From the NCBI GenBank assembly GCA_016788885.1, contig JAEURX010000038.1, forward strand, positions 1-64,000: a stretch of DNA of 64,000 nt, read 5' to 3'. The first letter of the stretch is position 1. Every line of letters begins with the position of its first letter. This document shows, in pieces, positions 6,418 to 22,950 of this stretch. Under the pieces are notes generated by a model. That model was not told where the DNA came from and did not search any database. It worked only from the letters and a program-made list of their open reading frames with translations. Position numbers and translations under genes: made by a program. The DNA is from Nitrospira sp. (GTDB lineage Bacteria > Nitrospirota > Nitrospiria > Nitrospirales > Nitrospiraceae).

Positions 6418-7644
6418 TTAGGTTGTCGAGACAACCTGGCGAATCCGCGTCCGGTAGTCGAGGAAAAACGCCATGAAGACGCCAATAACGAGCGCCAGCA
6501 CCCCAGCCACCGCCACATTGAGCAAGACGCGCGGGCGAGTCCGTTTATCGGCAGGGATTGCCGAATCCAATACTTGTACCGTCGGGGTATCTCTGGCTTC
6601 GGCAATCTTGGCCTGTTCATGCTGCGACGTCAGGAGAGTGAACAACGTTTCTTGAACCTTCACCTGGCGGAACAATCGCCCGAATTGCAGGGCCAAATCC
6701 GGCACCGCGACCATAGCCGGATGGAGTCGATCAGTCGACAAGAGGCCCTTCGCATCCTTCCCGGAACCCATCATAGCCAGCTGTTTCTTGAGTTCATCAA
6801 CATTGGAGCGAATTCTGGCGAGGTCAGGATTATCCGGCGACAGATATCCCCCCATGACTTGCATTTGGACTTCCTGTGCCGTGATCTGCCCTTGAATCAT
6901 CGCGGCAGCTTCGATCATCACCTTCGCTTGCGCCTCGACCGCAACCGTCTTGTTTTTGGCCTGAAAATCCCGCAGCGCCTCCTCAGCCTTCGCCATACTT
7001 TCCACCGTTTCACCCAGGCGCCGCTCGAGAAAGGCTCGATTTTGCCCTGCCTTGCTGACTGTAACTATGCGGTTCAGGCGATCGAGGTTCGCCACATAGA
7101 AATTCGCCATGTCCGCCGCAACTTGAGGGTCTTCATCTTCCACCGACACCTTGATGACCTTCTCCTTCGTCACGGTGATCCGCAGATGGTCCTCCAATTC
7201 CTTTCTCGTATCGACCATAGTCGACTCACGATATCGATTCATCAGATCGAATTTCTTGATCACTTCGTCGGCCATCAAACGGGATTTCAAAATTGAAACA
7301 AACACATCAGTTGGGGTGGTGGGAAGCCCTGGTAGGCCAAGACCAAGGTTTTGCGCCATACCGGCGGCACCCGGTGAAGTCAATAATGCCGCTAACGCAC
7401 CGCCTTCTTTAGACTCCAGCTGTGGCAAGACAGATGACGTTGATTCGTAGATTTTCGGGAGAAGAAGGCTGATGGCTAACGCGAGACTAGTCCCCACAAG
7501 AAAGAACGCGGCTATCATCGTTCGACGCGCAACTAGAACGTCCCAATAGTCAAACAATGTCACGGGATGATCTGCAGGGAGGTTCTCAGCCCGAGGGCGA
7601 GGAGGATCCAGGAGGGCGTGGGGACTATCCGAAGGCCAATCCAT
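6418..7644 (-). CDS. Wzz-type polysaccharide chain-length/export protein (408 aa)
   Basis: This is an inner-membrane polysaccharide co-polymerase. A short cytoplasmic N-terminus precedes TM1 at about 40-60 (MIAAFFLVGTSLALAISLLLP). A large periplasmic part with long coiled-coil helices (about 190-290) follows, then a proline-rich segment (SAIPADKRTRPR) and TM2 (VLLNVAVAGVLALVIGVFMAFFL). No kinase domain follows TM2, so it is a Wzz-like rather than full Wzc-like protein. It should set chain length together with the polymerase and contact the Wza-like exporter encoded 15 bases upstream. ATG 7644 was chosen over the TTG at 7650. Confidence 0.85.
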   Translation of the reverse strand: MDWPSDSPHALLDPPRPRAENLPADHPVTLFDYWDVLVARRTMIAAFFLVGTSLALAISLLLPKIYESTSSVLPQLESKEGGALAALLTSPGAAGMAQNLGLGLPGLPTTPTDVFVSILKSRLMADEVIKKFDLMNRYRESTMVDTRKELEDHLRITVTKEKVIKVSVEDEDPQVAADMANFYVANLDRLNRIVTVSKAGQNRAFLERRLGETVESMAKAEEALRDFQAKNKTVAVEAQAKVMIEAAAMIQGQITAQEVQMQVMGGYLSPDNPDLARIRSNVDELKKQLAMMGSGKDAKGLLSTDRLHPAMVAVPDLALQFGRLFRQVKVQETLFTLLTSQHEQAKIAEARDTPTVQVLDSAIPADKRTRPRVLLNVAVAGVLALVIGVFMAFFLDYRTRIRQVVSTT

Positions 7645-7659
7645 AGGCAATCCGATCGA

Positions 7660-10278
7660 CTATCGGCCAACCACCGCAATGCCTGCCGCCGTCAGAGCAA
7701 GACTGCCGATAATACTGGCCACCGTCTGCCACAACGCGAGCTGAGGGGGGCGCGCCTCGATTTTTTGCGGGACCACAATGGTATCTCCCGGGCGCATTTC
7801 CTTTGCCGAGAGATAGGAGGAGTCCGTCGTCCCATTTGCCCGCATGACGTACATCTCACGCTTATTGGCATCTTCGGTGACACCACCGGCCTGGCGTAAA
7901 TAGTCGTTCAGATCCAAGCCTGGCCGATAGACCACAGACGTTGGGTTCTTGACGGAGCCAATGATCCCGACCGTTTGGGGCGGCGTCGGAATCGAAATTC
8001 GGTCTCGCGACTCTAAAATGATATCGTCCTCGGTGCCTTCCAGACGTTCGATCGAATCCAAACTCACAATGACACGACCCAACTCGATGCGTGATGCGGT
8101 CGCCTCCAGTTGCTGGAGACGTAAGGCCAGCACCTGCTGCTCCGCCATAGCCCCACTTGCACCTGCCATGACGTTCAACCCAGCCGTGCCGGCAGCGATT
8201 CCGGCTGATTGCGCCGTTAATCGCTGGCGTTCCGCGGCGATAAACCGATCCAGCTCGGCCTGCTGCTTCACTTTGACGGACTCCCGCACGAGGACGATAC
8301 CGCTTGGAAACGCATTAGGCGTGAAGCCGCCTGATCGTTTCAACACCGAGCTCAACCGCTCGCCGATCTCAATGGTGAAGTATCCCGCTCGCCGAACCTC
8401 CCCTTCCACCAACACTAGAGCCGGGGCTCGCATTTGACTCGATATCACAACCTGGTCCAGCCGACTCAACGCAACATTGTCTGAATCGCGGCCATCAAAA
8501 ACCGCTTTGGGACTGAATGGAATCACCTTCGTCAGATACGTGGCCGGATCGGTCCGAACGATCTCGGCGCGATCGGCATACGCGTCGACTGTGAGCTGTT
8601 CGGGAGTCAGGATATCTTTCACACGCATTCCGGATCGAAACTCATAGGGCCCAGGACTTTTCACCGCACCGACAAGACTCACTACGTTCACCACTTGAGT
8701 AGGCAAAGTCGCGATTCGGATATAATCGCCGTCCAGTAGGATCGGATCTCCGCCCTCCACACCTACACGACTTTTCTCCTGCCCCTGCGAGGCGAAGGCC
8801 CGCACAAGATCCACATCGATCATATTCCGTTCCTGCAACGCCGGATCCTGGCGGAACAGGTGACAGCGTTGGCGATCTGACAAGGGCGTGAGCCCCCCGG
8901 CCAATGTCAACAATTCCGTCAACCGAGTCCCGGGTTTGAGTTCATAAATCGCCGGCCGCTTAACCGACCCGCTAATGGCAACGACCGGCCCAAGCGGCGG
9001 AACCAGCACGACATCGCCAGCTTGAAGCCGGTTGTCCTGCCGCCGGTCTCCTTGAAGCAAGAATTCATATAAGTCCAACTGTCCAATCGTTTTCCCATCC
9101 CGCATAATCCTGACCTGTCGGAGAGAACCAGACCGAGACGGTCCGCAGGCCGCATAAATCGCGTTCGATGCGGTGGCCAACGCGCTCAGCTCATAGGCTC
9201 CTGGTCGTGCCACTTCGCCGACCACATACACCTTCATGGTCCTGATGCGGGCCATCGACACATGCAATTCAAAACGCTTCAAGAGCATGCTCAGGCGAGC
9301 GTGAATGGTACGCTCGGCCTGCGAAAACGTCTGGCCGCCAACCGGAATGGCACCCACCTGCGGAATTATCACCATTCCGTCTCGTTCGACCGGTGCAATG
9401 TAGCTACGATTGAAATTTTGATCCGGGACATTCCAGATGTGGATGGCCAGCGAATCCTGGGGGCCGATCACATAGTCAGGCCCAACCGGCACATCTTGAA
9501 GCGACGTGAACCCGCCCGCATGGGCGTCGAAAAAATCATAGCCGAACTGTTTTAAGCGGCTCTTCACCCCCTGCAACACCGAAAATTGTGCAAAGGCTTC
9601 TTCCACAGAAAAGTCCTGATGCCGTAGCAACTCGGCAGTAAAGGGCTTTTGCTCCACCTGCTGTTTCGCTTGGCTAAGCTGATTCTGGGCTTGCCCCTGC
9701 ATGCCACCCACAGCCCCCTGCACTGCCGATTGCAGCCCCTGTAGCTGGGAGACGCCCTTTTTTTCCCGCTCGACCTGACTCTGTAACTCCAAACCACGTT
9801 TTTCTTTTTCGGCCTGCAGCCGTTCTAGTTGCCGATCACGCTCTTCCTCTTCCTGTCGCATGCGTTGTTCAACCGAGGTCGGAAGGAGACTATTCGCCGC
9901 CATGGGCCAGTAATCGTTCAGGTTTGGCACCGTGTTTTCTGGCGACAAGTCGGGAGCCGTCGGGATCGGGCACGGGGCATGTTGAGGGACAATGGGCTGG
10001 GTCGCCGTGGGATTCGTGAGAATGGCTTGACCCGGAGGGGTCGTCGATAATCCATAATTTCCAAACGGAAGGAAGGGGGACATTTGGCTGCTGATTGACG
10101 GGCTAACAGACGTACCGGAGGGAGCGGACGGAATCACGGGATTCGTGAGCGTCTGCGCGAGCAATGACGGTGGCAGGATCATACCCCCAACCAGCAACCA
10201 GATCACCGCCCTCATCCACCGGCCTGTGAGTTGCCCGCTACGAACACGGGGCACACGCCATTGCATTGAAAGAGGCAT
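7660..10278 (-). CDS. large Wza-like polysaccharide export protein with multiple SLBB domains (872 aa)
   Basis: This is a predicted periplasmic/outer-membrane exporter. The signal peptide is at about 24-41. A Pro/Thr-rich stretch to about 130 is followed by a Glu/Arg/Gln-rich coiled coil (about 137-210). A polysaccharide biosynthesis/export domain (PDYVIGPQDSLAIHIWNVPDQN) comes next, then several SLBB domains recognised by repeated openings such as VYVVGEVARPGAYEL, VAISGSVKRPAIYEL, VSLVGAVKSPGPYEF, VLVEGEVRRAGYFTI and VGIIGSVKNPTSVVY. It is more than twice the size of E. coli Wza (about 380 residues). The C-terminus is hydrophobic (SIIGSLALTAAGIAVVG). It belongs to the exopolysaccharide operon, next to the Wzz-like gene. 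Confidence 0.85.
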   Translation of the reverse strand: MPLSMQWRVPRVRSGQLTGRWMRAVIWLLVGGMILPPSLLAQTLTNPVIPSAPSGTSVSPSISSQMSPFLPFGNYGLSTTPPGQAILTNPTATQPIVPQHAPCPIPTAPDLSPENTVPNLNDYWPMAANSLLPTSVEQRMRQEEEERDRQLERLQAEKEKRGLELQSQVEREKKGVSQLQGLQSAVQGAVGGMQGQAQNQLSQAKQQVEQKPFTAELLRHQDFSVEEAFAQFSVLQGVKSRLKQFGYDFFDAHAGGFTSLQDVPVGPDYVIGPQDSLAIHIWNVPDQNFNRSYIAPVERDGMVIIPQVGAIPVGGQTFSQAERTIHARLSMLLKRFELHVSMARIRTMKVYVVGEVARPGAYELSALATASNAIYAACGPSRSGSLRQVRIMRDGKTIGQLDLYEFLLQGDRRQDNRLQAGDVVLVPPLGPVVAISGSVKRPAIYELKPGTRLTELLTLAGGLTPLSDRQRCHLFRQDPALQERNMIDVDLVRAFASQGQEKSRVGVEGGDPILLDGDYIRIATLPTQVVNVVSLVGAVKSPGPYEFRSGMRVKDILTPEQLTVDAYADRAEIVRTDPATYLTKVIPFSPKAVFDGRDSDNVALSRLDQVVISSQMRAPALVLVEGEVRRAGYFTIEIGERLSSVLKRSGGFTPNAFPSGIVLVRESVKVKQQAELDRFIAAERQRLTAQSAGIAAGTAGLNVMAGASGAMAEQQVLALRLQQLEATASRIELGRVIVSLDSIERLEGTEDDIILESRDRISIPTPPQTVGIIGSVKNPTSVVYRPGLDLNDYLRQAGGVTEDANKREMYVMRANGTTDSSYLSAKEMRPGDTIVVPQKIEARPPQLALWQTVASIIGSLALTAAGIAVVGR

Positions 10279-10367
10279 ACCGTTCTCAGAATCCCGCCTG
10301 TGGATAACGACTGTAGGTTCTAATCCAAATTCATCGGCTCAGTCAATCGAGCTCGGAATCAGACCAG

Positions 10368-12002
10368 TCAGAATTGCACCGCCACGGCTGTCCAGAGGAG
10401 ATGATTTTTCGCCGTCACACCGGCGGCAAAGGTTTCAGCAAAGGGTGTGAGGGCCGACACCTGACCGGGGTTAGTCAGGCGCTGATAGGTGTACCCCCCC
10501 ATGACCTGAACGTCTTTGGAACACCACCAGGTCAGATCGACGGCAACTTCACGCTTTTTCTCATGAACCGGCTGTCCCCGCTCCCGCTCCTGCAGATTGA
10601 AGTTTGCGCCCAATTGCAGGGTATCGGTCAGATACCGGGTGCTGCGCACAAAAAAGTCGGTCCCGTCGGTACCCATGTGATGTCCCAACGGAAATCCCCG
10701 GTAGCGCATGCCGCTGGTATAGGTCCCGTTGTTGTACCAGACCTGGCCCAATTCCGGATGGCGGCGCCGGCCGTAATCCGTATCGGCATATTCGATGCGC
10801 AGGTCCATGGTGTCGCCCTGAAAGACCTGCGGAATATAGAGACCGCCCAAAAACGCCGCCCGGCTCGGAATCGGTAGCTGCGACCACTTGTCTTCCGTGC
10901 CGATCTCTCCATACAGTTGAAGCCCCGCAGGGAAGGGAATCACGTAGGGCACCGAGGGAAGCCTGAGCCGGAAATCGGCCATGCCCTGCTCGTTGACGTC
11001 CTTGTCGGCTCCCTGATTGGCCGGATGGATATAGGTATCCACCACCGTCTCCGGGAAGGATTGATCCCGTCCGCGACCGCCGAACTGGGTCAAGCGCGTC
11101 AAGCCGAATTCCAACCAAGTGGTGGGCTGATAACTGATGCGCAATCCGAACACTCGGGCGCGTGAAAAATCTCGGTTACGCTCCAACTGCGCGAGAAACG
11201 CATTGACCTTCCAGTCCCCCAGCCCACTGAGCGGTCCCGGCAATTGAAACGGCCGTTCCGTGCCCAACTTGATCATGTCCATTGGAAACGCATGGTCGGT
11301 CAGCAACAATGACCCATGATAGCCCTGCCCCCACCATTGCGTTCCTCGTCCGACCTCCAGCGCAATGTTCGCGTAACTTAACTTGAGGCTGAATTCGCGC
11401 AGATAGAAGTTGTCGGCATTGTTCGTGGCCCCAATGCCCAGCAGGTGGCGATTGCTGATAAATTTCGGCTGGATCATCAGGGCTGCCCATTCGTTGAGCT
11501 CCGCCCAAGCGCGCACATCGGTTTGATTCTGCACACCATTGACAGAATATTCCCCGCCCCGGTTTTCACGGAACCGTACGGTTTGTCCACCGCCGATGGA
11601 CGACGCATCAACCTCCGATGTGACACGGGCGCCGACGCGCAGCGGCCCGGTTTTATCATCAGGACGCGCCCGAATGGTGCCGAGGCGAATGAGTTCCGGA
11701 CGGAACTCCGCGAGCAATCGTTCCAACAGCGGCTCGGCAATGGCCTCGCGACCGTCGATGTCGATCTCATCGGCACGAACCCGTTCGATGGCCCGCGCGA
11801 CATACTGCGCCGCCTGCAGACGGCTGAATGGCTTAGCCCCAATCAATGCACGATCAATCACGCCCAGAGCACTCAGGCGTTCGATCGCGTCATACGACCA
11901 ATGATGGAGCGGCACGTTCGATGTCGCGTGACCAATCCCCTCGTACGCGAGCACGAAGAGGAACATGACCGGCACAACGCGAACCAAGAGCCGACGGACC
12001 AA
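10368..12002 (-). CDS. Wzi-family capsule-assembly outer-membrane protein with SLH-like N-terminus (544 aa)
   Basis: The protein combines an N-terminal segment like an S-layer-homology unit (HHWSYDAIERLSALGVID, about 30-85) with a long beta-barrel region resembling the capsule assembly protein Wzi. Examples are GRGTQWWGQGYHGSLLLTDHAFP and LEFGLTRLTQFGGRG. It ends in a membrane-strand signature with terminal Phe (LLWTAVAVQF). Wzi-type proteins retain or organise surface polysaccharide at the outer membrane. I chose a TTG start at 12002 because GGGAGG lies 7 bases upstream and a clean signal peptide then begins (VRRLLVRVVPVMFLFVLAYEGIGHA). Starts further upstream would add an unlikely soluble extension. 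Confidence 0.8.
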   Translation of the reverse strand: MVRRLLVRVVPVMFLFVLAYEGIGHATSNVPLHHWSYDAIERLSALGVIDRALIGAKPFSRLQAAQYVARAIERVRADEIDIDGREAIAEPLLERLLAEFRPELIRLGTIRARPDDKTGPLRVGARVTSEVDASSIGGGQTVRFRENRGGEYSVNGVQNQTDVRAWAELNEWAALMIQPKFISNRHLLGIGATNNADNFYLREFSLKLSYANIALEVGRGTQWWGQGYHGSLLLTDHAFPMDMIKLGTERPFQLPGPLSGLGDWKVNAFLAQLERNRDFSRARVFGLRISYQPTTWLEFGLTRLTQFGGRGRDQSFPETVVDTYIHPANQGADKDVNEQGMADFRLRLPSVPYVIPFPAGLQLYGEIGTEDKWSQLPIPSRAAFLGGLYIPQVFQGDTMDLRIEYADTDYGRRRHPELGQVWYNNGTYTSGMRYRGFPLGHHMGTDGTDFFVRSTRYLTDTLQLGANFNLQERERGQPVHEKKREVAVDLTWWCSKDVQVMGGYTYQRLTNPGQVSALTPFAETFAAGVTAKNHLLWTAVAVQF

Positions 12003-12085
12003 CCCGATTCCTCCCACAGGACAAAGGCGTGATTGTGGGAACGCGGAGGGGAACAAGTCAATCGCAGACAGGCACTAACATGTCA

Positions 12086-12673
12086 CTATGGAAGCCGACT
12101 GATCGTGCGAAGGAGAATGAGGAGATCACCAAGAAAAGAGGCATTTTGCACATATTCCCTGGCTACTCGAATCTTATCGGGCAGTATGTGTTGGATGTAA
12201 TACTCTTCCGGACGTGTTGCCTCCGCGAGGATTGCCTCTTCGTTTCGATATTTGAGTGAGGCAGGGTCCGTGATTCCCGGACGGACCTTCAATAACTCCT
12301 CATAGTCTTGGCGGAATTGCTCAACATAGCGGCGCACTTCAGGCCGTGGCCCGACCAGACTCATTTCCCCACGCAAAACGTTCAGCAATTGCGGCAGCTC
12401 ATCGAGTTTTGTCCGTCTCAGCCATCGCCCCACGACGGTCACCCGCGCGTCTCCGCTCACGGTGATTTCGCTGCCATCCAGCCCCACACCAGGGCGCATG
12501 GTGCGAAACTTGTACATTCGAAATGGGCGAAAGCTTCGGCCAATCCGCTCGTGGACAAACATCACCGGCCCTGCCGATTCCAGCTTAATCAATAGTGCGG
12601 TAAGTGCGAACAGCGGCAACAGAAGGACGATTCCCGCTAGAGCAAGTGTCACATCCACACAACGCTTGATCAC
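12086..12673 (-). CDS. polyprenyl-phosphate sugar-1-phosphate transferase (monotopic PGT)
   Basis: This is the priming enzyme that transfers a sugar-1-phosphate from a nucleotide sugar to undecaprenyl phosphate. At 195 residues it is the minimal PglC-like form, lacking the extra N-terminal membrane region of WbaP. The re-entrant hydrophobic helix is at about 5-30 (CVDVTLALAGIVLLLPLFALTALLI). Catalytic motifs are present: YKFRTM, the Asp-Glu pair in TKLDELPQLLNVL, and SLVGPRPE. It starts at a GTG whose last base overlaps the stop of the aminotransferase gene (GTGA), indicating translational coupling. The sugar is unknown; the neighbouring aminotransferase suggests an amino sugar. Confidence 0.9.
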   Translation of the reverse strand: MIKRCVDVTLALAGIVLLLPLFALTALLIKLESAGPVMFVHERIGRSFRPFRMYKFRTMRPGVGLDGSEITVSGDARVTVVGRWLRRTKLDELPQLLNVLRGEMSLVGPRPEVRRYVEQFRQDYEELLKVRPGITDPASLKYRNEEAILAEATRPEEYYIQHILPDKIRVAREYVQNASFLGDLLILLRTISRLP

Positions 12674-13830
12674 CGACGATACTCGGCGACAATCGTGCGG
12701 ACTGACTCGATCACATGCTCTATATCGGTTTCGGTCATGCGCGGATAGATGGGGAGGGACATGATTCGCTCGAAAACGCTGCTGGCAATGGGGAAGTCAT
12801 CGGGTGTGAAACCATATCTGGTGCGGTAGTAGGGATGAAGATGTAACGGGATAAAATGTACCGACGCCCCAACTCCATACTTTTTCAGCGCCTGAATAAA
12901 ATCATTACGGGTGATTCGGAGTCGATTCAGCTCCAATTGTATGACATACAAATGCCATGAATGCTCTGCCTCCGCCCCTGCGCTCGGAAGGCGGAGTTCT
13001 GGCAGATCGGCAAATCCACACTCATACGCGGCCGCGATCCTGCGCCTTGCTTCGAGCAATCGCTGACACTTACGTAGCTGTTCGATTCCGATCGCAGCCG
13101 CAATATCGGTCAAATTGTACTTGTACCCCGGTGCTCCGATTTCGTAGTACCACGACCCCGAATCGGAATATCGTTTCCACGCGTCTTTGGTAATGCCATG
13201 CAACGTCATCCGGCGCATCCGCTCAGCCCAGGCCTGATTATTGGTGGTTGCCATCCCCCCCTCACCGGTCGTCAGCGTTTTTGTCGCGTAAAATGAGAAG
13301 CAGGTGATGTCTCCCACAGATCCGATCGGCTGGCCGCGATACGATGATGGAAATGCGTGTGCCGCATCTTCCACGACTGCCAATCCGTGACTGCTCGCAG
13401 CCGCGAGAATGCCTTGCATATCGCAGGGCAGCCCCGCGATATGCACTGGGATCACGGCCTTCGTTCGCCGGGTGATTTTTCCAGAAAGAGCCGCGACGTC
13501 AAGGTTCAAGGTGAATGGGTCGCAATCAAGCAGAACAGGCGTGGCCTTAAAGTACGCGACGACCTCCGCCGTGGCGGCAAAGGTCATGGTCGGAATGAGA
13601 ACCTCATCGCCCTCCTCAATCCCCAGGGCTTCTAACGCCACATGCAACGCCGCAGTGCATGAATTCGTTGCCACAGCATGCTCGGCCCCGACCTGCGCCG
13701 CAAAACTCTCTTCAAACTGCTGTACCTTTGGCCCTGTCGTCAACCAACCCGACTCAAGCACCTTCATCACAGCGGACATTTCTTCTGCTCCGATGTCAGG
13801 AACATGAAATGGAACTTGATGGTCACTCAT
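12670..13830 (-). CDS. DegT/DnrJ/EryC1/StrS-family sugar aminotransferase
   Basis: This PLP-dependent aminotransferase of about 386 residues acts on keto-sugars bound to a nucleotide. The PLP lysine is in FYATKTLTTGEGG, and the fold is marked by AVATNSCTAALHVALEALGI (cofactor phosphate) and VVEDAAHAF. It overlaps the priming transferase gene by 4 bases and the methyltransferase gene by 8 bases, so all three are made from one message. It probably produces the amino sugar used as the first residue of the repeat unit. The substrate cannot be read from the sequence. Confidence 0.9.
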   Translation of the reverse strand: MSDHQVPFHVPDIGAEEMSAVMKVLESGWLTTGPKVQQFEESFAAQVGAEHAVATNSCTAALHVALEALGIEEGDEVLIPTMTFAATAEVVAYFKATPVLLDCDPFTLNLDVAALSGKITRRTKAVIPVHIAGLPCDMQGILAAASSHGLAVVEDAAHAFPSSYRGQPIGSVGDITCFSFYATKTLTTGEGGMATTNNQAWAERMRRMTLHGITKDAWKRYSDSGSWYYEIGAPGYKYNLTDIAAAIGIEQLRKCQRLLEARRRIAAAYECGFADLPELRLPSAGAEAEHSWHLYVIQLELNRLRITRNDFIQALKKYGVGASVHFIPLHLHPYYRTRYGFTPDDFPIASSVFERIMSLPIYPRMTETDIEHVIESVRTIVAEYRR

Positions 13831-14581
13831 GATGTAGTGGCTTTCGAATAGTGCCGAGATAATGGGTACATAGGAACGGGATCACACTGAGAAGTTGACA
13901 GGCCCACCAGGAGATCGGGGCAACAAACCGAGCGATCGGAGGGGCGAGCGTGAGGCGATGCAGTTCGACGGTACATCCTTCGAACAGCTCTTGAATTTCA
14001 CGCCGAGAAACGCCGCGTACATCGACATTCCACGGATTATTGACAAAAAAGTCGTACCACAGAATTAAGCCGGTGGGCTTCAGGACTCTCAGCATTTCCT
14101 GAGCAAGTCGCTTCCGAACCTCCTCGCTCAGGATGGACGTAAACACAGTGGATTGAATGATAAGGTCGAAACTTTCATCGGGAATCTGGAGCACAGTGGC
14201 ATTTCGGCACTGAACAGTCACCCCTACAGGACTCAGACATCGAGCGTTCGCGACTCGCGACGCTAGCAAATCCACTCCGGTGATCGAGCCGGGGTTGGCG
14301 CCCCATCGGATGAGGTCTCGAATCCAAAATCCGTCGCCGCATCCGACATCAAGAATTTGAACCCCGCTAAGTGACGACCAGCCTGCCTGCGCGAGGATCG
14401 ATAGCGTCCGACGTTCTCGTTCCTGCAGCATGAACAAATTGCCCTGATTGAAGAGGGAGAACTGTCCAAGGCAAGAACCACGCTCACGGCGTGCATAGGC
14501 CTCACGAATTCGAGTTTCTTCTAGGTCCGATCTCACCGGACCGGTCGCGGAGGATTTATCTGAAAATTCCACGCTCATCAT
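13823..14581 (-). CDS. class I SAM-dependent methyltransferase
   Basis: The protein has 252 residues with a Rossmann methyltransferase core. Motif I is VQILDVGCGDGFWI and motif II is ITGVDLLASRV. A later motif is FDLIIQSTVFTSIL, and VLKPTGLILWYDFFVNNP resembles motif III. A hydrophobic C-terminal part (FVAPISWWACQLLSVIPFL) could sit at the membrane. It starts with two ATG codons overlapping the stop of the GT2 gene. In a polysaccharide operon it most likely methylates a sugar or a lipid-linked intermediate; the substrate is not known. Confidence 0.8.
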   Translation of the reverse strand: MMSVEFSDKSSATGPVRSDLEETRIREAYARRERGSCLGQFSLFNQGNLFMLQERERRTLSILAQAGWSSLSGVQILDVGCGDGFWIRDLIRWGANPGSITGVDLLASRVANARCLSPVGVTVQCRNATVLQIPDESFDLIIQSTVFTSILSEEVRKRLAQEMLRVLKPTGLILWYDFFVNNPWNVDVRGVSRREIQELFEGCTVELHRLTLAPPIARFVAPISWWACQLLSVIPFLCTHYLGTIRKPLHHE

Positions 14582-15612
14582 CTGGACAGCGGAATGGAAT
14601 TCGCGTCGGTATCAGGCACCTTGCGACGAATCCAGAAATCGAATATCCCGCGAACATACCCCAGGCCGTAACTGACATGAAGAATCGGAAAAACCAGCAA
14701 CATCCATCCGGCACAGCGAAGGCCACTCGACAATCCTACCGCAAACGCGAAGACAAAATCTGCCAGCGCATAGCAGCCCACCAACAGCGCCAGAATGAAT
14801 CGGGAAGGTTGGAATACCGTCGATGCAGTGGAAAGACTAATGAGCAATGCTAAACATAGAAGGGGTACCAGTTGCCGCAGGGTGCAGACTCTGCCCACTT
14901 TCCACGCAACCAGTGGTTTAAAGTATCCATACTGGTAATACATTCTCCAGAGTTGCTGCAGGGATGAACGGGCATAGTAGTAGGAGACCACGTCAGGGAC
15001 CAACAGGACTCGACCCCCTCGAGAAATTAATCGATGGTTGAATTCATCATCCTGATTTCTGATGAGTTGTTCATCGAACAACCCGATTCGGGCGAACACG
15101 TCTTTCCTGTAACAGCCCCCGAATACCGTATCGACCAATCTCGGCGTGGAGGTTCCGATTCGGAAATATGACGTTCCCACACCGAAGGGGTGCGAGAGGC
15201 CGTAAGCAATCGCGTGCGCCACGGGGCTGTCATTGGCAGGCACGGTCATACACACCCCGCCGACATTGTCCGCCCCGCTCCGCCCCAACCATTCCACCAG
15301 GCCGGAAATATAGTCCCTCGGATAGAGACTATGTGCATCCATGCGCATGATGATGTCGCCGGTTGCCTCCGCGATGCCGATATTCAACCCGCACGGAGTG
15401 GTTCTCTCCACATTGTCCAGCAGGCGTATCATGGAATGCTCCGCAAGATACCGGGAAACAATTGACCTCGTCCCGTCCTGGCTCAGGCCGTCGACGACCA
15501 GAATTTCGAGGCGATCCCTGGGATACGTGCTCTCTAGAATGGATTCTAGGCTGGCTGCAATGAAAGGCGCTTCATTGAGGCAAGGCACAATGACAGATAC
15601 GATCGGAGGCAT
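14578..15612 (-). CDS. family 2 glycosyltransferase, membrane-anchored (ExoA-like)
   Basis: The GT-A domain begins at the N-terminus (IVSVIVPCLNEAPFIAASLESIL), with ILVVDGLSQDGT and the metal-binding DAHS (IMRMDAHSLYPRDY). A second acidic motif lies in the acceptor region (NQDDEFNHRL). Two or three hydrophobic segments at about 235-320 anchor it to the membrane. The layout matches succinoglycan ExoA-type transferases. I chose ATG 15612, directly before the domain, over the GTG at 15666, which would add an uncharacteristic leader. It adds one sugar to the lipid-linked repeat unit on the cytoplasmic side. Confidence 0.85.
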   Translation of the reverse strand: MPPIVSVIVPCLNEAPFIAASLESILESTYPRDRLEILVVDGLSQDGTRSIVSRYLAEHSMIRLLDNVERTTPCGLNIGIAEATGDIIMRMDAHSLYPRDYISGLVEWLGRSGADNVGGVCMTVPANDSPVAHAIAYGLSHPFGVGTSYFRIGTSTPRLVDTVFGGCYRKDVFARIGLFDEQLIRNQDDEFNHRLISRGGRVLLVPDVVSYYYARSSLQQLWRMYYQYGYFKPLVAWKVGRVCTLRQLVPLLCLALLISLSTASTVFQPSRFILALLVGCYALADFVFAFAVGLSSGLRCAGWMLLVFPILHVSYGLGYVRGIFDFWIRRKVPDTDANSIPLSR

Positions 15613-15690
15613 CTTCACAACCTGCCCCTTGATGGCTTCATCACATTGTGCAACGCGCGAACGCACAAGCAGGCACTCAGAAAGATTCGC

Positions 15691-17004
15691 TTAGACCTTT
15701 GCCACCTGTGGAGCATTACCCCGGCTCGACACTAAGTACAGCGCATACCCAAGCCCCATACTCATGGCCATCCCTTTCAAGCCAGGGATTCCGCTACGAA
15801 TACATAAGGGGTAGGCTGAAACAAGCCCCGCAAAAATGAATTGACCCGCCACGCTCACACACGCAAACTTGAACACTGCCCAGTGAAGTCCCCCTAGAAG
15901 TAGCGCTCCAACTACCGACGCCAACAACCCATAATTTATATAAAAGTCCGTCATCAGATTCATGCCCCATCCAGTGCGTGCGGGCAAACCAGCAGAAGCA
16001 GCAAAATGCTCATACGGTCCTTCATCGGGTCGATCTTCTGCGACGAACCTCGGCACAAGAATGCTCCCAAGATAGCTAAAGGAGCCGCCGGGATACGGCT
16101 CCACTCGATTTGCCATTGCAATATACTGGGAAAATACGGTCCTAGACTCGGCATTGACTATCACCTGTGCAGCCGCTTCACTCATAACCTCGGATAGCCC
16201 CATCGGCCCCTTCATTTCACGAAACACACCAATGGCACTAAGAGGGATGAGAAGTGCTAGCGCGAGGCATATCCCACGCCCGGCCCGGATTCTATGGAAG
16301 CTTGCTAGTGCCACTGCCGCAAGTCCGCCTTCAAGGAAAATGACCCTATCTCCCAGCGCCATCATGGACGTAACAAAGAGTGCCCCCCCAATGAGTATCA
16401 GCACCCAGAATATGTACGTCAGTCGCCCCGGTCGGACTTTTAAGGTCTCGCCCATGCCGACACCTGCAAAGAGGAGAATACAAAGGCACATCGAGGCGAT
16501 ACTCAGCATCAGCTTTAAAAGCCCACCGTAGGCACCCAACTGCTCAGCTGATTTAAAGACTAGGTATGCGGATTCCCCCTCATTCAAATAAGTGAGTACG
16601 ATCTCAACCCAGGGCATGATCCCAACAATAAAGCTCACAGTACCCAGAAGGAGCACCGGCCATCCACTCAAGAACACATCACCGCACTCAAGCTTTGGCA
16701 AAACATTCGGACGCAACAATAGGACTGCCCAGGCCATCAAATAGGTGTCAGCGAACACTAGGCTTACTAAGACCGCCGCCCAAAAATGTTGGTTGTATGA
16801 GATGAAGTAGGGAAACCCATCATACCAATACTCTCCGAGGGTCCACCCCAGAGCCTCGTGGAAGAAGACCACGACATATCCGTGCAATAGATAATTGTAA
16901 GACAATCCTAATAACAGGAAGACACCGAAAGATTTGGCCCTACAGAGCACATAGACATTGAGGAGGAGAAATAACAGAACCAGCACTACTGCAAGTGCTT
17001 CCAT
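15691..17004 (-). CDS. polytopic membrane protein, probable Wzy-type polymerase
   Basis: The 437-residue protein has about ten or more hydrophobic segments and a larger external loop at about 265-345 (FREMKGPMGLSEVM, then PYPGGSFSYLGSILVPRF), as seen in O-antigen/oligosaccharide repeat unit polymerases. No short catalytic motif is diagnostic in this family, so the call rests on topology and on location between glycosyltransferases and near flippase and Wzz genes. ATG 17004 is used because the TTG at 17019 would lie within the preceding gene. The polymerase would join repeat units on the periplasmic side. Confidence 0.7.
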   Translation of the reverse strand: MEALAVVLVLLFLLLNVYVLCRAKSFGVFLLLGLSYNYLLHGYVVVFFHEALGWTLGEYWYDGFPYFISYNQHFWAAVLVSLVFADTYLMAWAVLLLRPNVLPKLECGDVFLSGWPVLLLGTVSFIVGIMPWVEIVLTYLNEGESAYLVFKSAEQLGAYGGLLKLMLSIASMCLCILLFAGVGMGETLKVRPGRLTYIFWVLILIGGALFVTSMMALGDRVIFLEGGLAAVALASFHRIRAGRGICLALALLIPLSAIGVFREMKGPMGLSEVMSEAAAQVIVNAESRTVFSQYIAMANRVEPYPGGSFSYLGSILVPRFVAEDRPDEGPYEHFAASAGLPARTGWGMNLMTDFYINYGLLASVVGALLLGGLHWAVFKFACVSVAGQFIFAGLVSAYPLCIRSGIPGLKGMAMSMGLGYALYLVSSRGNAPQVAKV

Positions 17005-17008
17005 TAGC

Positions 17009-18055
17009 TTAAGTCCCAACCTCTTCCAAAATTTGTGCTATTGCATCAAATGCCTTCTGCACTGAAACCGTAGTAATGCATTTTTGTGAAATCGGACATT
17101 TCGAAAAAAGGGGTGTCTCGAAACACGGCATACATGGCAAGGAGTAATCCGTCTTCACGATGAGATTCCTCTTTCCCAATGGCTGCGTCTGATTAATTCT
17201 TGTTGGGCCGGCAACGGTCACAACAGGCACGCCAACCGCTGCAGCAACATGCCCTAATCCGGTATCGCCACATAGAAAAACATTTGTCCTCGCTATGCAT
17301 GCAGCCACGACACTAAGAGGCATGTCCTGAAATCGCACAACCCTCTTAGCCATATCCTTCGATCCGGCCTCAAACAGCCGATCCTCTGGGCCGAAAAACA
17401 GAGCTACTTTTCCATTTGGGAATTCGGTCAAAAACCGCGAGATGACATCCCAGCACCATGGCTCTGGGAGTTTCTTATCTTGTTCAAATACGCCACAGCC
17501 TGGATGCAAACCCATGACAACATGCCCCTCGAGTTCGTGCTCACGCCATACCAACGCCGCATCTGTCTCCTGCGCCTGGTTTAAATGAAATTTTGCAGAT
17601 AAATTTCCATTGGTTTCAGCATCGGGAAGCAACAATTTAAGGATTTGGATATTCTCCAGACTCCGATGATTCATAAGGTTTGTCTGCCGCCAATGCGTGT
17701 ATCCCCAGCCGCGACTGGCAATGCCGCCTCCGGCAACCAGTTTCAAACCCGACAACAACCTCAACAGGAGACCTACTTTTGGCGATAGCCCTGTCGCTAC
17801 GATCGCAGCATCAAACCGCTCAAGTCGAACCTTGGAAAAAAACAACAGTATGTCGAGCACAGACCTTTTGCGAAATGACATGCTTCTTACTTCGTCGCAG
17901 AGATCGGAGCCTCTTATCACATCCCCAGCTGCCAACGATCCTGCCACAACTGTGACGTGGGCGTTCGGCAACGCCGTGCGAAGCACATGCAGCATCGGCG
18001 TGGTCATAATCATGTCCCCGATACCCCAGGTCTGAATAACGAGGACTTTTTTCAT
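17009..18055 (-). CDS. family 9 glycosyltransferase (heptosyltransferase-like)
   Basis: This 348-residue GT-B enzyme is related to the ADP-heptose:LPS heptosyltransferases. The N-terminal motif is VLVIQTWGIGDMIMTTPMLHVLR. The C-terminal donor site is NVFLCGDTGLGHVAAAVGVPVVTVAGPT. A cysteine-rich tail (CMPCFETPLFSKCPISQKC) is common in this family. It ends 4 bases before the polymerase start and its start overlaps an 86-codon frame as ATGA. It either builds the exopolysaccharide repeat unit or modifies an LPS core; the locus favours the former. Confidence 0.88.
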   Translation of the reverse strand: MKKVLVIQTWGIGDMIMTTPMLHVLRTALPNAHVTVVAGSLAAGDVIRGSDLCDEVRSMSFRKRSVLDILLFFSKVRLERFDAAIVATGLSPKVGLLLRLLSGLKLVAGGGIASRGWGYTHWRQTNLMNHRSLENIQILKLLLPDAETNGNLSAKFHLNQAQETDAALVWREHELEGHVVMGLHPGCGVFEQDKKLPEPWCWDVISRFLTEFPNGKVALFFGPEDRLFEAGSKDMAKRVVRFQDMPLSVVAACIARTNVFLCGDTGLGHVAAAVGVPVVTVAGPTRINQTQPLGKRNLIVKTDYSLPCMPCFETPLFSKCPISQKCITTVSVQKAFDAIAQILEEVGT

Positions 18056-18312
18056 GCGACCTCAAAGGATGGTCGCCCTTGCTGCTTCCAAAGTAACACC
18101 AAAGCCTCCACTCCGTCCTGAGACGAATACCTGGCGAGGGCTCCACATGCAACGACATAAACAACCGTCGATGCACACACATGCGCCCTATTTTCCGCGG
18201 GCCACAGAAACAGCCGGGGTAAACGTACCCCTACACAGAAAAGTGGCCCAAGAAGGCATGGAGTCGATTCACAGGCAAACACCCCACCAAGCTTTTTGTC
18301 CATCACAGCCAT
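18052..18312 (-). CDS. questionable 86-codon frame coupled to the GT9 gene
   Basis: This frame in the 327-base gap between the GT9 and flippase genes ends with a TGA that overlaps the GT9 ATG (ATGA), as true operon neighbours do here. ATG 18312 has a weak GGAAG about 10 bases upstream. The translated protein has seven cysteines, hydrophobic patches and no recognisable domain. It could be a small uncharacterised protein, the remnant of a larger gene, or chance. I see nothing else in this gap. Confidence 0.25.
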   Translation of the reverse strand: MAVMDKKLGGVFACESTPCLLGPLFCVGVRLPRLFLWPAENRAHVCASTVVYVVACGALARYSSQDGVEALVLLWKQQGRPSFEVA

Positions 18313-18382
18313 TAAAAGATCACTTCCGGCTCGTCATATAAACCTTGGCTGAATTACACGACATCTTGTGAGAGAGAATGAT

Positions 18383-19702
18383 CTACGCAACAGCCGCGGG
18401 CATCCGCCTCACCATGAAACGAAATAGATAGAGACCTTCGAATAAGACCTGAAACCCAACTGCTATGACATAGCTGACCATGAGACCATTTCGACCATGA
18501 TGCACGAATAACGGATAGCTAATGACCATTTGCAGAATGTACCGTGCCGAATAAATGATTGAGACTGCATGCATCCGTCCATCGCTGAGGAGGGGCATCA
18601 AGAGCACCCTTGAAATGGCCTCAGCGGGAAGAGCCCATACGGCCAACTCCAATAAACGCCCTGTCTTTTCAGCGGCCGACGCATCGAACAGACCACCGCC
18701 AAACGCCAACCCAACCACCTCGCGCGCGTTCCAATAAATCGCAGACGCCATCGACATGGTTACAAGGAACAGGCCGACGCAACAGGACAAGAGGATCCAT
18801 TTGGCCGAATGCACATCTCCAGATTTCAGATAGCGAATGTACCGAGGGCCCATCACCAGAGCCAATGGTTTGCCCGCAAGTATAGAGAGCGGATAAATGA
18901 GCGCGAGCGCATAGGTCATCATCGCGATGCTTCCTACCCCATCCATCGAGGCCAACGCTCTCAACAATCCCATCGCTACCTGAGCCAATACGGCCGTTAG
19001 AAGGAGCCCGAATCCTTGGCTCATAAGAGAGCACATTTTGCCCTTTCCAACGTCAAGCCTTGGCTTGTAATGAAATCCCGTGACCCGTGTGAACATCATC
19101 CATAGGAAGGCGAGACCCACCGCACCAAAGACACACAAAGATAGGGCGGTTTCGTTCAGCGTCGGAGCATAACCAAAAATCCACCAACTTCCGACAATTC
19201 CCATTCGACTTACCGCCTGACAGACTTCCGCCCCCACAGGCACTCCATACGCAGTGAGTATGGAACTAAGAAAAGACCCGACCCCCAATACAAGGACCAA
19301 CGGCATCAACAGGACAATAAGGCTGACCGCTTCATGTTTCGCCGCGCCCTGAAGTCCTGGGGCTAACAATTCGGTGAGCGGGATCGAAAACATGGCGGCC
19401 AGGACGACCAAACTCGTGAAGCATAGCAACAGGTAGCTCAAAATCCCGGAGAACAGATCATTGGCGTAATTGAAGTCTTTGCTGTGAACCCCTGAAAATT
19501 TTGCGGCGATGAGGGCCTCAAAAAATACGAAGCCGCTCATACTCATCAACATAAACGGGACCGAATAGGCGACATCAAATGCATCCTTGTGCGACGACGT
19601 TCCCCAATTCGACGCCAAAAACTTCATAAACAAATATCCAACAAACGCGTTGAGCGCGACTTGTGTCGTGAACGACCAATGCCTGAGGATGTCCTTCATC
19701 AT
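18383..19702 (-). CDS. MurJ/Wzx-like lipid-linked oligosaccharide flippase
   Basis: The 439-residue protein has about 12-14 predicted membrane helices and the overall pattern of the MOP superfamily (MviN/MurJ and Wzx). The N-terminal part shows the usual SHKDAFDVAYSVPFMLMSMSGF segment, and the second half repeats the arrangement (GLFDASAAEKTGRLLELAVWALPAEAISRVLL). In this locus it should move the finished lipid-linked repeat unit across the inner membrane for polymerisation. It is the first gene of the minus-strand cluster and starts 190 bases from the divergent barrel gene. A dedicated MurJ is less likely here but cannot be excluded. Confidence 0.75.
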   Translation of the reverse strand: MMKDILRHWSFTTQVALNAFVGYLFMKFLASNWGTSSHKDAFDVAYSVPFMLMSMSGFVFFEALIAAKFSGVHSKDFNYANDLFSGILSYLLLCFTSLVVLAAMFSIPLTELLAPGLQGAAKHEAVSLIVLLMPLVLVLGVGSFLSSILTAYGVPVGAEVCQAVSRMGIVGSWWIFGYAPTLNETALSLCVFGAVGLAFLWMMFTRVTGFHYKPRLDVGKGKMCSLMSQGFGLLLTAVLAQVAMGLLRALASMDGVGSIAMMTYALALIYPLSILAGKPLALVMGPRYIRYLKSGDVHSAKWILLSCCVGLFLVTMSMASAIYWNAREVVGLAFGGGLFDASAAEKTGRLLELAVWALPAEAISRVLLMPLLSDGRMHAVSIIYSARYILQMVISYPLFVHHGRNGLMVSYVIAVGFQVLFEGLYLFRFMVRRMPAAVA

Positions 19703-19892
19703 ATCAACGGGGAAACCATCGCTACACCGCGAACCGTCTCAAATCTTCCCAGTGAATAGAAAACCAATTCCCGCTAGGCGGCATTCCTGTCGACTCATAT
19801 TCCCTTTGGTCGATCCTTGTCCATGCCGTATCTTGAAACAATGTATTTAATTGACGCCGCACCTGCGTAGTTCTTATCATCGCCCCCCACAC

Positions 19893-22154
19893 GTGAAACC
19901 ACCGCTCATTCATCGAATTGGTTGCGGCCTGTTCTGGGCAAGCTTACTCACGCTCGCCTATCTATTCCCAATCAGTGACCTCTTTGCAGAAGAAGCCGTT
20001 CAGCCGTCAGTTGCCCGCCTCCTCGACGCCCGCTTCTCCGTCAGCACCTTCATGCTCAACCTCGAGAAACAAGGCCTGGAGGACAATACCTTCACGAACG
20101 GCCTGGGACGCGACACGACACTCATCGGCAATTTGGTCAACGCGACCGTCTATCGGCGGTTGCTCCCCAATCTCGAAGCGGAGCTCGGGGTCTTTGCCAA
20201 TATACCCTTCGGACACGATACTGAAGTATCTCAAGTCCGGCCCATCGTCCGCCTGACCTATCAGCCGATCGATCAGCTCACCGCCGTCGCCGGGACGATC
20301 CGCACTCCGCACCGGGATTTCCACGACGCCGTCTTCGACAACGGCAACCGGTTCCTGCGTCCCATCGAGCAGGGGGCTCAAATGCTAGTGGATTCCCAAC
20401 ACTATCGGCAAGACCTGTTCATCAACTGGCAGCAGGCATTTCAGGGCTTGTCGCCGAACCGCTTCGACGTGGGATATGCCGGACAGCTGAAGTTCGGTCC
20501 GCTTCGATTCAACGGCCAAGCCCATTGGGTACGCAATGGGCAAGCCCTGTTCAAGCTGGACCGCTCCTTTAATACGCGCGACAACCTGGTGGTCGCCGCC
20601 GGCCCAGAACTGGTCCTGACGCCGCCCCGATTCTTCCGCTCCGCCGACTGGTGGAATGAAATCGGCATCAGTTACACCTATTTGGCAAGTTTCAACCAGG
20701 CTGATGACGGCTCTCCGACCTCTCGTGGGCGCGGCTACGAGCTTCGGGGCTGGCTCGACCTGGCCGGATGGCGTCCCTATGTGTCCTTCTGGAAAGGCCG
20801 GAACTTTCTCAGCCAGCAGGGCGATCCTGAATTTAGGGCGAGTAATTTCCCGGAATTCGGACTCTCCAAAACGGTACGGCTTGGAGACCGGGCATCAATT
20901 GAGTTTGGGGCCCAGGCCCGCCGAATCCGCGCCTTCTATACCGAAGACTCGATCAACTATTTCACCCGCGACACGTTCAAATGGGTGAATCAGGAATATC
21001 TGGTCTTCAACTGGAACTGGGACACGAATCACGCCGACCTCATTGGCGATGTCTGGGCTTCAGTTTCTCAACCTGCCGAGAAGGACCTGGACACGTCTTC
21101 AGCACGTCGGTTCCGGGTGAAGCTCGACACCTTGACCTACGTGTATAGTGTGGCCTATTCCGGCGTTCGACAGATTCATGGACTGCCGGTCTCAAACCAT
21201 ATATTCGCGGGCCAATACCTTGCCCCAGTGCTTCAGTACAAGGTCACTCCACAGCTGACGCTTGATGCCGGTGTCTTCGCCGGTCTGCCGGTAGCGGATA
21301 CCCAACGGTTTCACACGGTGCAGCCGATTCTTTCCGCCGAATATGCGATGTTTCCGGATGTGCACCTGGTGGCTGGTACATTGCGACGCAACCATCCCTT
21401 CGTGGATGCATTGTTTGACGATGCGAAGTTATTCTCTCGCCCAATCGAACAGGGTTTCCAACTGCTGGTCGATCAGGAACACTATCAGCAAGATCTCTTT
21501 ATCAACTGGAACCAAATTGAAACGTTCCAAAAAGCCGAGCGGTTCGATGTGGGCTATGCCGGCCGGGTAGCGGCGGGGCCTTTCGCGTTAAACGGCCAGG
21601 TGTATTGGACCCATTCCGGTGGCGCACAATATTCCGAGGCGCGCACATTTTTCGGACCTGGCCTGCCCCGCGATCGTCCTGCCGGGAACAATTTTCTGAC
21701 TGCCTTCGGGCCGCAATTCACGTTTCAACCCCGACAGTACTGGTCCGCCGTGCCCTGGTTCCGGGAAATCGACATCATGGCTCTCTATCTCACTAGCCAG
21801 AATGAGCCCACGCAAAGTGGTTCCCCGATTGTCCGCGGTCGCGGATATCAATTCACTGCCGGATTGAACCTCGATGGCTGGCGCCCTTATGTCACGATTT
21901 GGCGAGGGGAGCAGTTCGTGAGTGAACGTGGCGACCCCGCGTATTATGCAGGAGATTTTACGGAATTCGGTCTCGTGAAAGACGTGGTATTACCGGCAGG
22001 TTTTTCTCTCCGCTTCGGCGGATTTGGACGCACCATCGAACGGCATCTCACCCATACCGAATATGCGCTGCTCAACTGGTCATGGGATCAATCGAGATGG
22101 CGAGGATTCTGCCTACGCCCCACCTTGTTGCATCGAGAAGAAACCCAGTGCTGA
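19893..22154 (+). CDS. outer-membrane beta-barrel protein with two tandem homologous halves (753 aa)
   Basis: Function unknown. The signal peptide is CGLFWASLLTLAYLFPISDLFA. The mature protein consists of two related units, about residues 35-360 and 420-750, that share the same order of motifs. These are RPIEQG followed by LLVD, a QDLFINW segment, FDVGYAG, then SRGRGYELRGWLDLAGWRPYV in unit 1 and VRGRGYQFTAGLNLDGWRPYV in unit 2. The next pair is QQGDPEFRASNFPEFGL and ERGDPAYYAGDFTEFGL. The alternating aromatic pattern indicates beta-barrel strands. The start is uncertain: GTG 19893 gives the cleanest signal peptide, and TTG 19851 is possible. It is transcribed away from the exopolysaccharide cluster and may be a surface partner of it. 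Confidence 0.7.
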   Translation: MKPPLIHRIGCGLFWASLLTLAYLFPISDLFAEEAVQPSVARLLDARFSVSTFMLNLEKQGLEDNTFTNGLGRDTTLIGNLVNATVYRRLLPNLEAELGVFANIPFGHDTEVSQVRPIVRLTYQPIDQLTAVAGTIRTPHRDFHDAVFDNGNRFLRPIEQGAQMLVDSQHYRQDLFINWQQAFQGLSPNRFDVGYAGQLKFGPLRFNGQAHWVRNGQALFKLDRSFNTRDNLVVAAGPELVLTPPRFFRSADWWNEIGISYTYLASFNQADDGSPTSRGRGYELRGWLDLAGWRPYVSFWKGRNFLSQQGDPEFRASNFPEFGLSKTVRLGDRASIEFGAQARRIRAFYTEDSINYFTRDTFKWVNQEYLVFNWNWDTNHADLIGDVWASVSQPAEKDLDTSSARRFRVKLDTLTYVYSVAYSGVRQIHGLPVSNHIFAGQYLAPVLQYKVTPQLTLDAGVFAGLPVADTQRFHTVQPILSAEYAMFPDVHLVAGTLRRNHPFVDALFDDAKLFSRPIEQGFQLLVDQEHYQQDLFINWNQIETFQKAERFDVGYAGRVAAGPFALNGQVYWTHSGGAQYSEARTFFGPGLPRDRPAGNNFLTAFGPQFTFQPRQYWSAVPWFREIDIMALYLTSQNEPTQSGSPIVRGRGYQFTAGLNLDGWRPYVTIWRGEQFVSERGDPAYYAGDFTEFGLVKDVVLPAGFSLRFGGFGRTIERHLTHTEYALLNWSWDQSRWRGFCLRPTLLHREETQC

Positions 22155-22247: not shown

Positions 22248-22276
22248 TTGCCACCTCGCATGAAGCTCGCTAGAGT
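22248..22276 (+). promoter_or_regulatory. predicted sigma70-type promoter before the small barrel gene
   Basis: TTGCCA at 22248-22253 is followed by a 17-base spacer and TAGAGT at 22271-22276. It lies about 50 bases before the start codon of the gene at 22327. Confidence 0.45.
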
Positions 22277-22326: not shown

Positions 22327-22950
22327 ATGGGTCGCTGGTTCGTCGCACTACTGTTCCTAGTCCTGTTGGGCTTACCTACACGCGCACTGGCAGAAACCTA
22401 TGTCGCCGCAGGCATCGGTATGAACGCCCCCTCCTTTGACACCACCGATGCCGGAAAGGTGGCACTCCAGAAAGACCTCTTTTACGGAGGCAAGATCGGC
22501 CATTATTTTAACGATCGCGGCTACAACTGGTTTGGGATTGAAGTGGACGCGTACCGTTCTACGCCAGGCATCAAACAACAAACATTGCCGACATCCAGCA
22601 ACCCTCGACTATCGGGGCCGATTCCTGGTGCGGATTTGATGGTGCATTCCCTAGCTTTTAATGCATTGGTCCGCGTCACCGGCTATCAATACAAGGTGGA
22701 ACCCTATGCAGGACTTGGCATCGGCCTGAATGTCGGGAATATTTCAAGCGGCAATTTCAGACCAGAAGCATCATTTGCCCCAAGCTTTAACGTGTTGGCT
22801 GGCATTCGGTACTACATGACCGAGTCGATTGCTCCCTTCATTGAGTACAAGTATAACTTCGCCCAATTCAAATTCGACCGCAGCAATGTCACGGCCGACT
22901 ACCGCGCCAATCTGTTCATGTTCGGCATCGCTTATCATTTCGGTCGATAG
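22327..22950 (+). CDS. small outer-membrane beta-barrel protein (207 aa)
   Basis: The protein has a signal peptide (ALLFLVLLGLPTRALA) and about eight amphipathic strands, in the style of OmpA/OmpW-like eight-stranded barrels. Examples are ETYVAAGIGMNAPSF, YKVEPYAGLGIGLNVG, FNVLAGIRYYMTE and IAPFIEYKYNFAQFKF. It ends in FGIAYHFGR, close to a typical barrel end. ATG 22327 is favoured by AGAGGAG 6 bases ahead, rather than the GTG at 22312. It has its own promoter and is convergent with the antiporter gene. The precise function is unknown; proteins of this size are often structural or adhesive. Confidence 0.75.
   Translation: MGRWFVALLFLVLLGLPTRALAETYVAAGIGMNAPSFDTTDAGKVALQKDLFYGGKIGHYFNDRGYNWFGIEVDAYRSTPGIKQQTLPTSSNPRLSGPIPGADLMVHSLAFNALVRVTGYQYKVEPYAGLGIGLNVGNISSGNFRPEASFAPSFNVLAGIRYYMTESIAPFIEYKYNFAQFKFDRSNVTADYRANLFMFGIAYHFGR

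Follow-up and report, generated by a model that had tools for sequence, protein, structure and literature searches.

The window analyzed here, the whole 64,000-nucleotide stretch of Nitrospira sp. DNA, carries a gene for a predicted outer-membrane protein that consists of two similar units in one chain (Table 1). The coordinates and reading frame given for this gene in the earlier note, 19893-22154, proved correct. Sequence comparison favors its GTG at 19893 as the true start: in 26 aligned orthologues and the copy from a sister genus, a TTGAC-N17/18-TATnAT element is conserved 11 to 12 nt before the GTG. A longer form beginning at TTG, as in the open reading frame listing, was rejected because this placement makes the TTG part of the conserved -35 box. 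No Shine-Dalgarno sequence was seen ahead of the conserved GTG in any of the 27 orthologues inspected. The promoter-like element and the GTG lie together at 19851-19895. The sequence suggests that the transcript of the double-unit gene is leaderless or has a very short leader.

On one side, the gene is flanked by a polysaccharide cluster, at whose edge a flippase gene is transcribed divergently; on the other side lies a gene for a small outer-membrane barrel. The latter is preceded by a promoter-like site of its own and therefore may form a separate transcript. Its family, OMP_b-brl, is present in several copies in most Nitrospiraceae genomes.

Table 1. Positions of the double-unit gene, its parts, and its neighbors in the window
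Feature	Position	Strand	Remarks
Polysaccharide cluster	6418-19702		Wzz, Poly_export, Wzi, sugar transferase, glycosyltransferase, flippase; upstream of double-unit gene
Wzi gene in polysaccharide cluster	10368-12056		PF14052, 260 bits
MurJ-family flippase gene	18383..19702	-	Divergent neighbor; edge of polysaccharide cluster
Sigma70-like promoter, TTGACG-N18-TATCAT	19851..19880	+	12 nt ahead of GTG; element shared by 26 aligned orthologues and G414 (sister genus)
Double-unit outer-membrane protein gene	19893..22154	+	GTG start, 753 aa
Probable signal peptide (residues 1-32)	19893..19988	+	By inspection: hydrophobic N-terminus ending ...SDLFA; 31% mean identity
Unit 1 (residues 43-386), LpxZ-like	20019..21050	+	Unit alone to NF052651, E 8.2e-8
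H140, invariant His of unit 1	20310..20312	+	26/26 orthologues, all single units compared, LpxZ
E159, conserved acidic residue of unit 1	20367..20369	+	In RPIEQG
Variable linker (residues 387-404)	21051..21104	+	30% mean identity vs 76-83% in units
Unit 2 (residues 405-733), LpxZ-like	21105..22091	+	Unit alone to NF052651, E 5e-10; 16-stranded model
H501, invariant His of unit 2	21393..21395	+	26/26 orthologues, single units compared, LpxZ
E519, conserved acidic residue of unit 2	21447..21449	+	
C-terminal tail beyond last predicted strand	22092..22151	+	Conserved cysteines C740 and C753
Promoter-like site of downstream gene, TTGCCA-N17-TAGAGT	22248..22276	+	Consensus match only
Small outer-membrane barrel gene (OMP_b-brl)	22327..22950	+	Orthologue adjoins in each of the 20 genus loci examined and also in G414

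Two homologous units in one chain

The duplication is real, and the two halves are homologous. Aligned with each other, they score 573, compared to 37 ± 6 for shuffled sequence, and over the best local alignment (283 residue pairs) they are 42% identical at the amino acid level and 49% identical at the nucleotide level. The motifs named in the earlier note occur once per half and in the same order, at residues 156/516 (RPIEQG), 173/533 (QDLFINW), 191/551 (FDVGYAG), 278/648 (RGRGY), 292/662 (GWRPYV), 310/680 (GDP), and 321/691 (EFGL); the exception is RGDP, which is found in the second half only, the first half reading QGDP. Similarity at the DNA level, which had also been reported, was recovered as well, with both of the quoted 21-mers located, at 20399 and 21479. 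Together with single units encoded elsewhere and a 16-stranded model of one unit, the alignment score bears out the proposal of a tandemly duplicated outer-membrane barrel.

The two units are not conserved to the same degree. Mean pairwise identity among orthologues is higher in unit 2 (83.0%) than in unit 1 (75.6%), and it falls to 30 to 31% in the linker and signal peptide. A set of residues is nevertheless common to both units, the single-unit relatives, and the one LpxZ sequence compared, from Parabacteroides: an invariant His (H140/H501), an acidic residue (E159/E519) that is Glu or Asp throughout the 26 orthologues, the single units, and this LpxZ, and an NW pair (N178/N538 and W179/W539) that is invariant or nearly so. 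Other positions distinguish the units. D505 is invariant in unit 2, whereas its counterpart in unit 1, D145, is Asn in 9 of the 26 species; the same position is Glu in the Parabacteroides LpxZ. Conversely, a Glu at position 58 of unit 1 is kept by the single units (as Glu or Asp) and by LpxZ but is lost in nearly all unit-2 copies. From their conservation, we infer that the His and acidic residues may have a catalytic role.

Distribution, neighborhood, and origin

Lack of conservation outside this genome had been named as grounds for doubting the earlier proposal. Full-length orthologues were instead retrieved from 27 of the 29 genus (Nitrospira) genomes searched, this one included, at 70 to 82% identity and with one copy each; a further full-length double-unit copy is present in one sister-genus genome (G414). 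The two remaining Nitrospira genomes, G002 and G011, gave no match to the double-unit protein. G011 retains the downstream gene on a contig that ends 244 bases before it, and those bases do not encode the end of the barrel; the double-unit gene is probably absent from G011, as judged on a fragmented assembly.

The search for single-unit homologues, likewise proposed in advance, was productive. Within the same taxonomic family, such genes are present in G313 (L059), G462 (L144), and G413 (L060, split across two contigs), and outside that family there is one in G338 and a broken copy in G217. The G217 gene (L092:3049-4150) is split into two reading frames and could be a pseudogene or reflect a sequencing error. 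In addition, G336 has two adjacent, slightly overlapping, unfused single-unit genes (L093:6935-9219), which the tree of units resolves as an independent tandem duplication with support of 100/100. A match in G375 was discarded as a single unit, as it is a MotB-like protein by sequence, and a nucleotide search of plasmids gave no relative of the double-unit gene.

The tree of units gathers every unit-1 row into one group (support of 100/99) and every unit-2 row into a second (98/100); these groups are sisters (94/90) with the single units outside both, while long branches leave the deeper order uncertain. This topology is therefore most simply explained by one duplication and fusion at the base of the double-unit lineage, which would have occurred before the radiation of this Nitrospira genus. 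The occurrence of single-unit homologues elsewhere in Nitrospirota likewise argues for one duplication and fusion and not for an artefact. We are highly confident in this account of the architecture and ancestry of the fused two-unit protein.

The divergent neighbor in other species is usually also a flippase, but these flippases fall into several dissimilar types (by Pfam, those tested are MurJ or Polysacc_synt); otherwise, it is an oxidoreductase, an aldo/keto reductase, or a sugar transferase. This divergent side (18383-19702 in the window and its counterparts in L021-L040 and L143) constitutes a hypervariable polysaccharide locus. Because the upstream side is swapped between species while the double-unit gene stays fixed, the gene marks a constant border of a surface-polysaccharide locus that itself varies. 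Single-unit genes adjoin other kinds of genes, including TldD-like and hydrolase genes and, by sequence, Wood-Ljungdahl-type genes; no polysaccharide cluster was seen beside a homologue at the single-unit loci examined. The link with polysaccharide surface biology drawn in the earlier note thus holds as genomic context in Nitrospira, where the gene is the fixed edge of the locus and usually adjoins a flippase; since the single-unit loci show no such link, it does not demonstrate function.

Relationship to LpxZ and predicted fold

No Pfam model matches the double-unit protein, and a sequence search of the PDB found no relative. The NCBIfam model NF052651 (LpxZ), on the other hand, matches the whole protein with an E value of 2.8e-17 and 62.6 bits, covering profile positions of about 101 to 311 of 371. 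The separate units score 31.5 and 38.8 bits, unit 2 being slightly closer to LpxZ. When this model was run over 395 genomes of the phylum, matches occurred only in genomes carrying this barrel family, and the similarity is therefore not a general barrel effect. We further compared the units with a Parabacteroides LpxZ-family protein (WP_211744403.1, L118; 567 bits on NF052651), a single member taken from the plasmid set that stands for LpxZ in all our sequence comparisons. The alignment runs end to end at about 20% identity, and hhalign, with this one sequence on the LpxZ side, gave a probability of 98.9% and an E value of 1.4e-17 over 294 columns. The corresponding gene (L118:3884-5122), a full LpxZ-family gene on a 375-kb record labeled as a Parabacteroides distasonis plasmid, is annotated as encoding a hypothetical protein.

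The name LpxZ was given to PGN_1123, identified by mutant phenotype as the lipid A deacylase of Porphyromonas gingivalis: when it is deleted, the lipid A stays penta-acylated (PMC11784228). The literature searched gave no catalytic residues for LpxZ. We did not place the double-unit protein within LpxZ because its 62.6 bits lie far below the curated cutoff of 460 bits and because its 753 residues in two units depart from the single-domain size of LpxZ (about 370 to 410 residues). Single-unit relatives outside the genus do fit that size, and none of the 395 Nitrospirota genomes gave a match above the 460-bit cutoff. By sequence, then, the protein is a distant, fused relative of LpxZ and not a member of that family. 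The original description of it as a barrel of unknown function is only partly right, since both units are distantly homologous to a lipid A deacylase.

Structure prediction with AlphaFold was informative for the single unit. Unit 2 alone, modeled with 40 units as the alignment, gave 16 strands with a pLDDT of 72.6 and a pTM of 0.72, while the full-length model (pLDDT of 46.5, pTM of 0.41) was unreliable and was left out of fold searches. The best PDB fold matches of the single-unit model are porins and AlgE, with Z scores of 16 to 19 and an rmsd of about 4; the top match has a Z score of 18.7 over 271 residues at an rmsd of 3.8. The model supports a porin-sized barrel per unit, the fold match being generic and devoid of functional information. 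LpxR is missing from the fold-match lists, an absence that rules nothing out. The model places the conserved His and acidic residues in the stretch linking predicted strands 5 and 6, and its confidence there is low.

Proposed function, alternatives, and related systems

As a whole, the observations are best explained by a two-barrel LpxZ-like hydrolase in the outer membrane, a reading to which we assign a probability of roughly one-half. Two complete 16-stranded barrels, presumably separate from one another, would stand in series in a single polypeptide, with a short linker of variable sequence between them, a single-barrel gene having probably been duplicated and fused before the radiation of this Nitrospira genus. 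In the outer membrane, the protein would act like LpxZ, hydrolyzing acyl chains of outer-leaflet LPS or lipid A at one putative site per unit around the conserved residues (H140/D145/E159 and H501/D505/E519). Deacylation of lipid A in particular is a tentative assignment that we hold slightly short of even odds. LpxC is present, and the genome can therefore make lipid A; it also encodes three PAP2 proteins. LpxR was not found in 31 genomes, this one included, and PagL was not found in this genome. The PagL family of lipid A deacylases is patchy in Nitrospira, occurring in G002, G009, G010, and G013-G016. The units are probably unequal: unit 2 is the more constrained and lacks one Glu, and unit 1 has that Glu but shows the replacement of Asp by Asn in 9 of 26 species. 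Whether unequal means complementary, with one barrel catalytic and the other binding substrate or regulating, so that the protein would be a two-barrel lipid A-remodeling machine, fixed in this genus, at the edge of a variable polysaccharide locus, is a more doubtful proposition that we consider less likely than not.

Two alternatives concern the architecture. An assembly artefact or a recent, unfixed duplication is refuted by the orthologues, with nothing found in its favor: the same architecture occurs in 28 genomes, single-contig chromosomes among them, and identity between the halves has dropped to about 42%. It is very improbable that both halves form one large barrel of about 32 strands, as single units exist as separate genes, the linker is hypervariable, and a unit modeled by itself has 16 strands and is matched to porins over residues 8 to 330; on this question, the full-length model asked for in the earlier note is too poor to decide either way.

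The other alternatives concern function. One is a twin porin, glycan-binding barrel, or exporter that would serve the neighboring polysaccharide in the manner of AlgE or Wzi, with the loop between strands 5 and 6 as a constriction or ligand site. It would suit a gene that forms the invariant edge of a variable polysaccharide locus and has a flippase adjacent or nearby in most genomes. AlgE ranks high in Foldseek (E value of 6.6e-10), and the top VIA matches are all channels. Sequence homology, however, is to LpxZ, with none detected to AlgE or Wzi; AlgE does no better than generic porins in the fold matches, the cluster already has its own Wzi and Poly_export genes, and the single-unit homologues adjoin unrelated genes. 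We consider a polysaccharide-serving barrel unlikely. Less probable still is a related outer-leaflet lipid hydrolase or acyltransferase with another substrate, for example, a phospholipid or an LPS-linked glycan ester. Such an enzyme would have the same His/acidic core, and its similarity to LpxZ is distant enough to allow for a different substrate, but the sole characterized relative, as far as the source cited above goes, acts on lipid A.

The relationship to LpxZ gives a surface protein found almost throughout a nitrifying genus of central environmental importance a function that can be tested, and it extends LpxZ-like barrels to Nitrospirota, beyond the Bacteroidota in which LpxZ was named. 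As a natural chain of two predicted barrels, for which single-barrel relatives could serve as controls, the protein would also allow study of how the assembly machinery handles two linked barrels when the first lacks a free C-terminus. The earlier note calls fused double barrels rare; nothing usable on multi-barrel outer-membrane proteins was found in the literature searched.

Among known systems, LpxR and PagL are outer-membrane barrel lipid A deacylases of 12 and 8 strands, respectively. The double-unit protein resembles them as a proposed lipid A-acting barrel of the outer membrane; it differs in that neither profile matches it and in the 16 strands predicted for its unit. AlgE and the classical porins (OmpM1, OmpC) share the overall barrel fold of the single-unit model at Z scores of 16 to 19, a generic match with no sequence relationship detected. 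The capsule anchor Wzi is likewise an outer-membrane barrel near polysaccharide genes, but PF14052 has no match to the double-unit protein, even at E values of up to 10. The LpxZ family differs from the protein described here in having one unit per chain, in its host phylum, and in its low identity to the Nitrospirota protein, which scores far below the family cutoff, yet each unit aligns with LpxZ from end to end and has the invariant His, the conserved acidic residue, and the NW motif in common with it.
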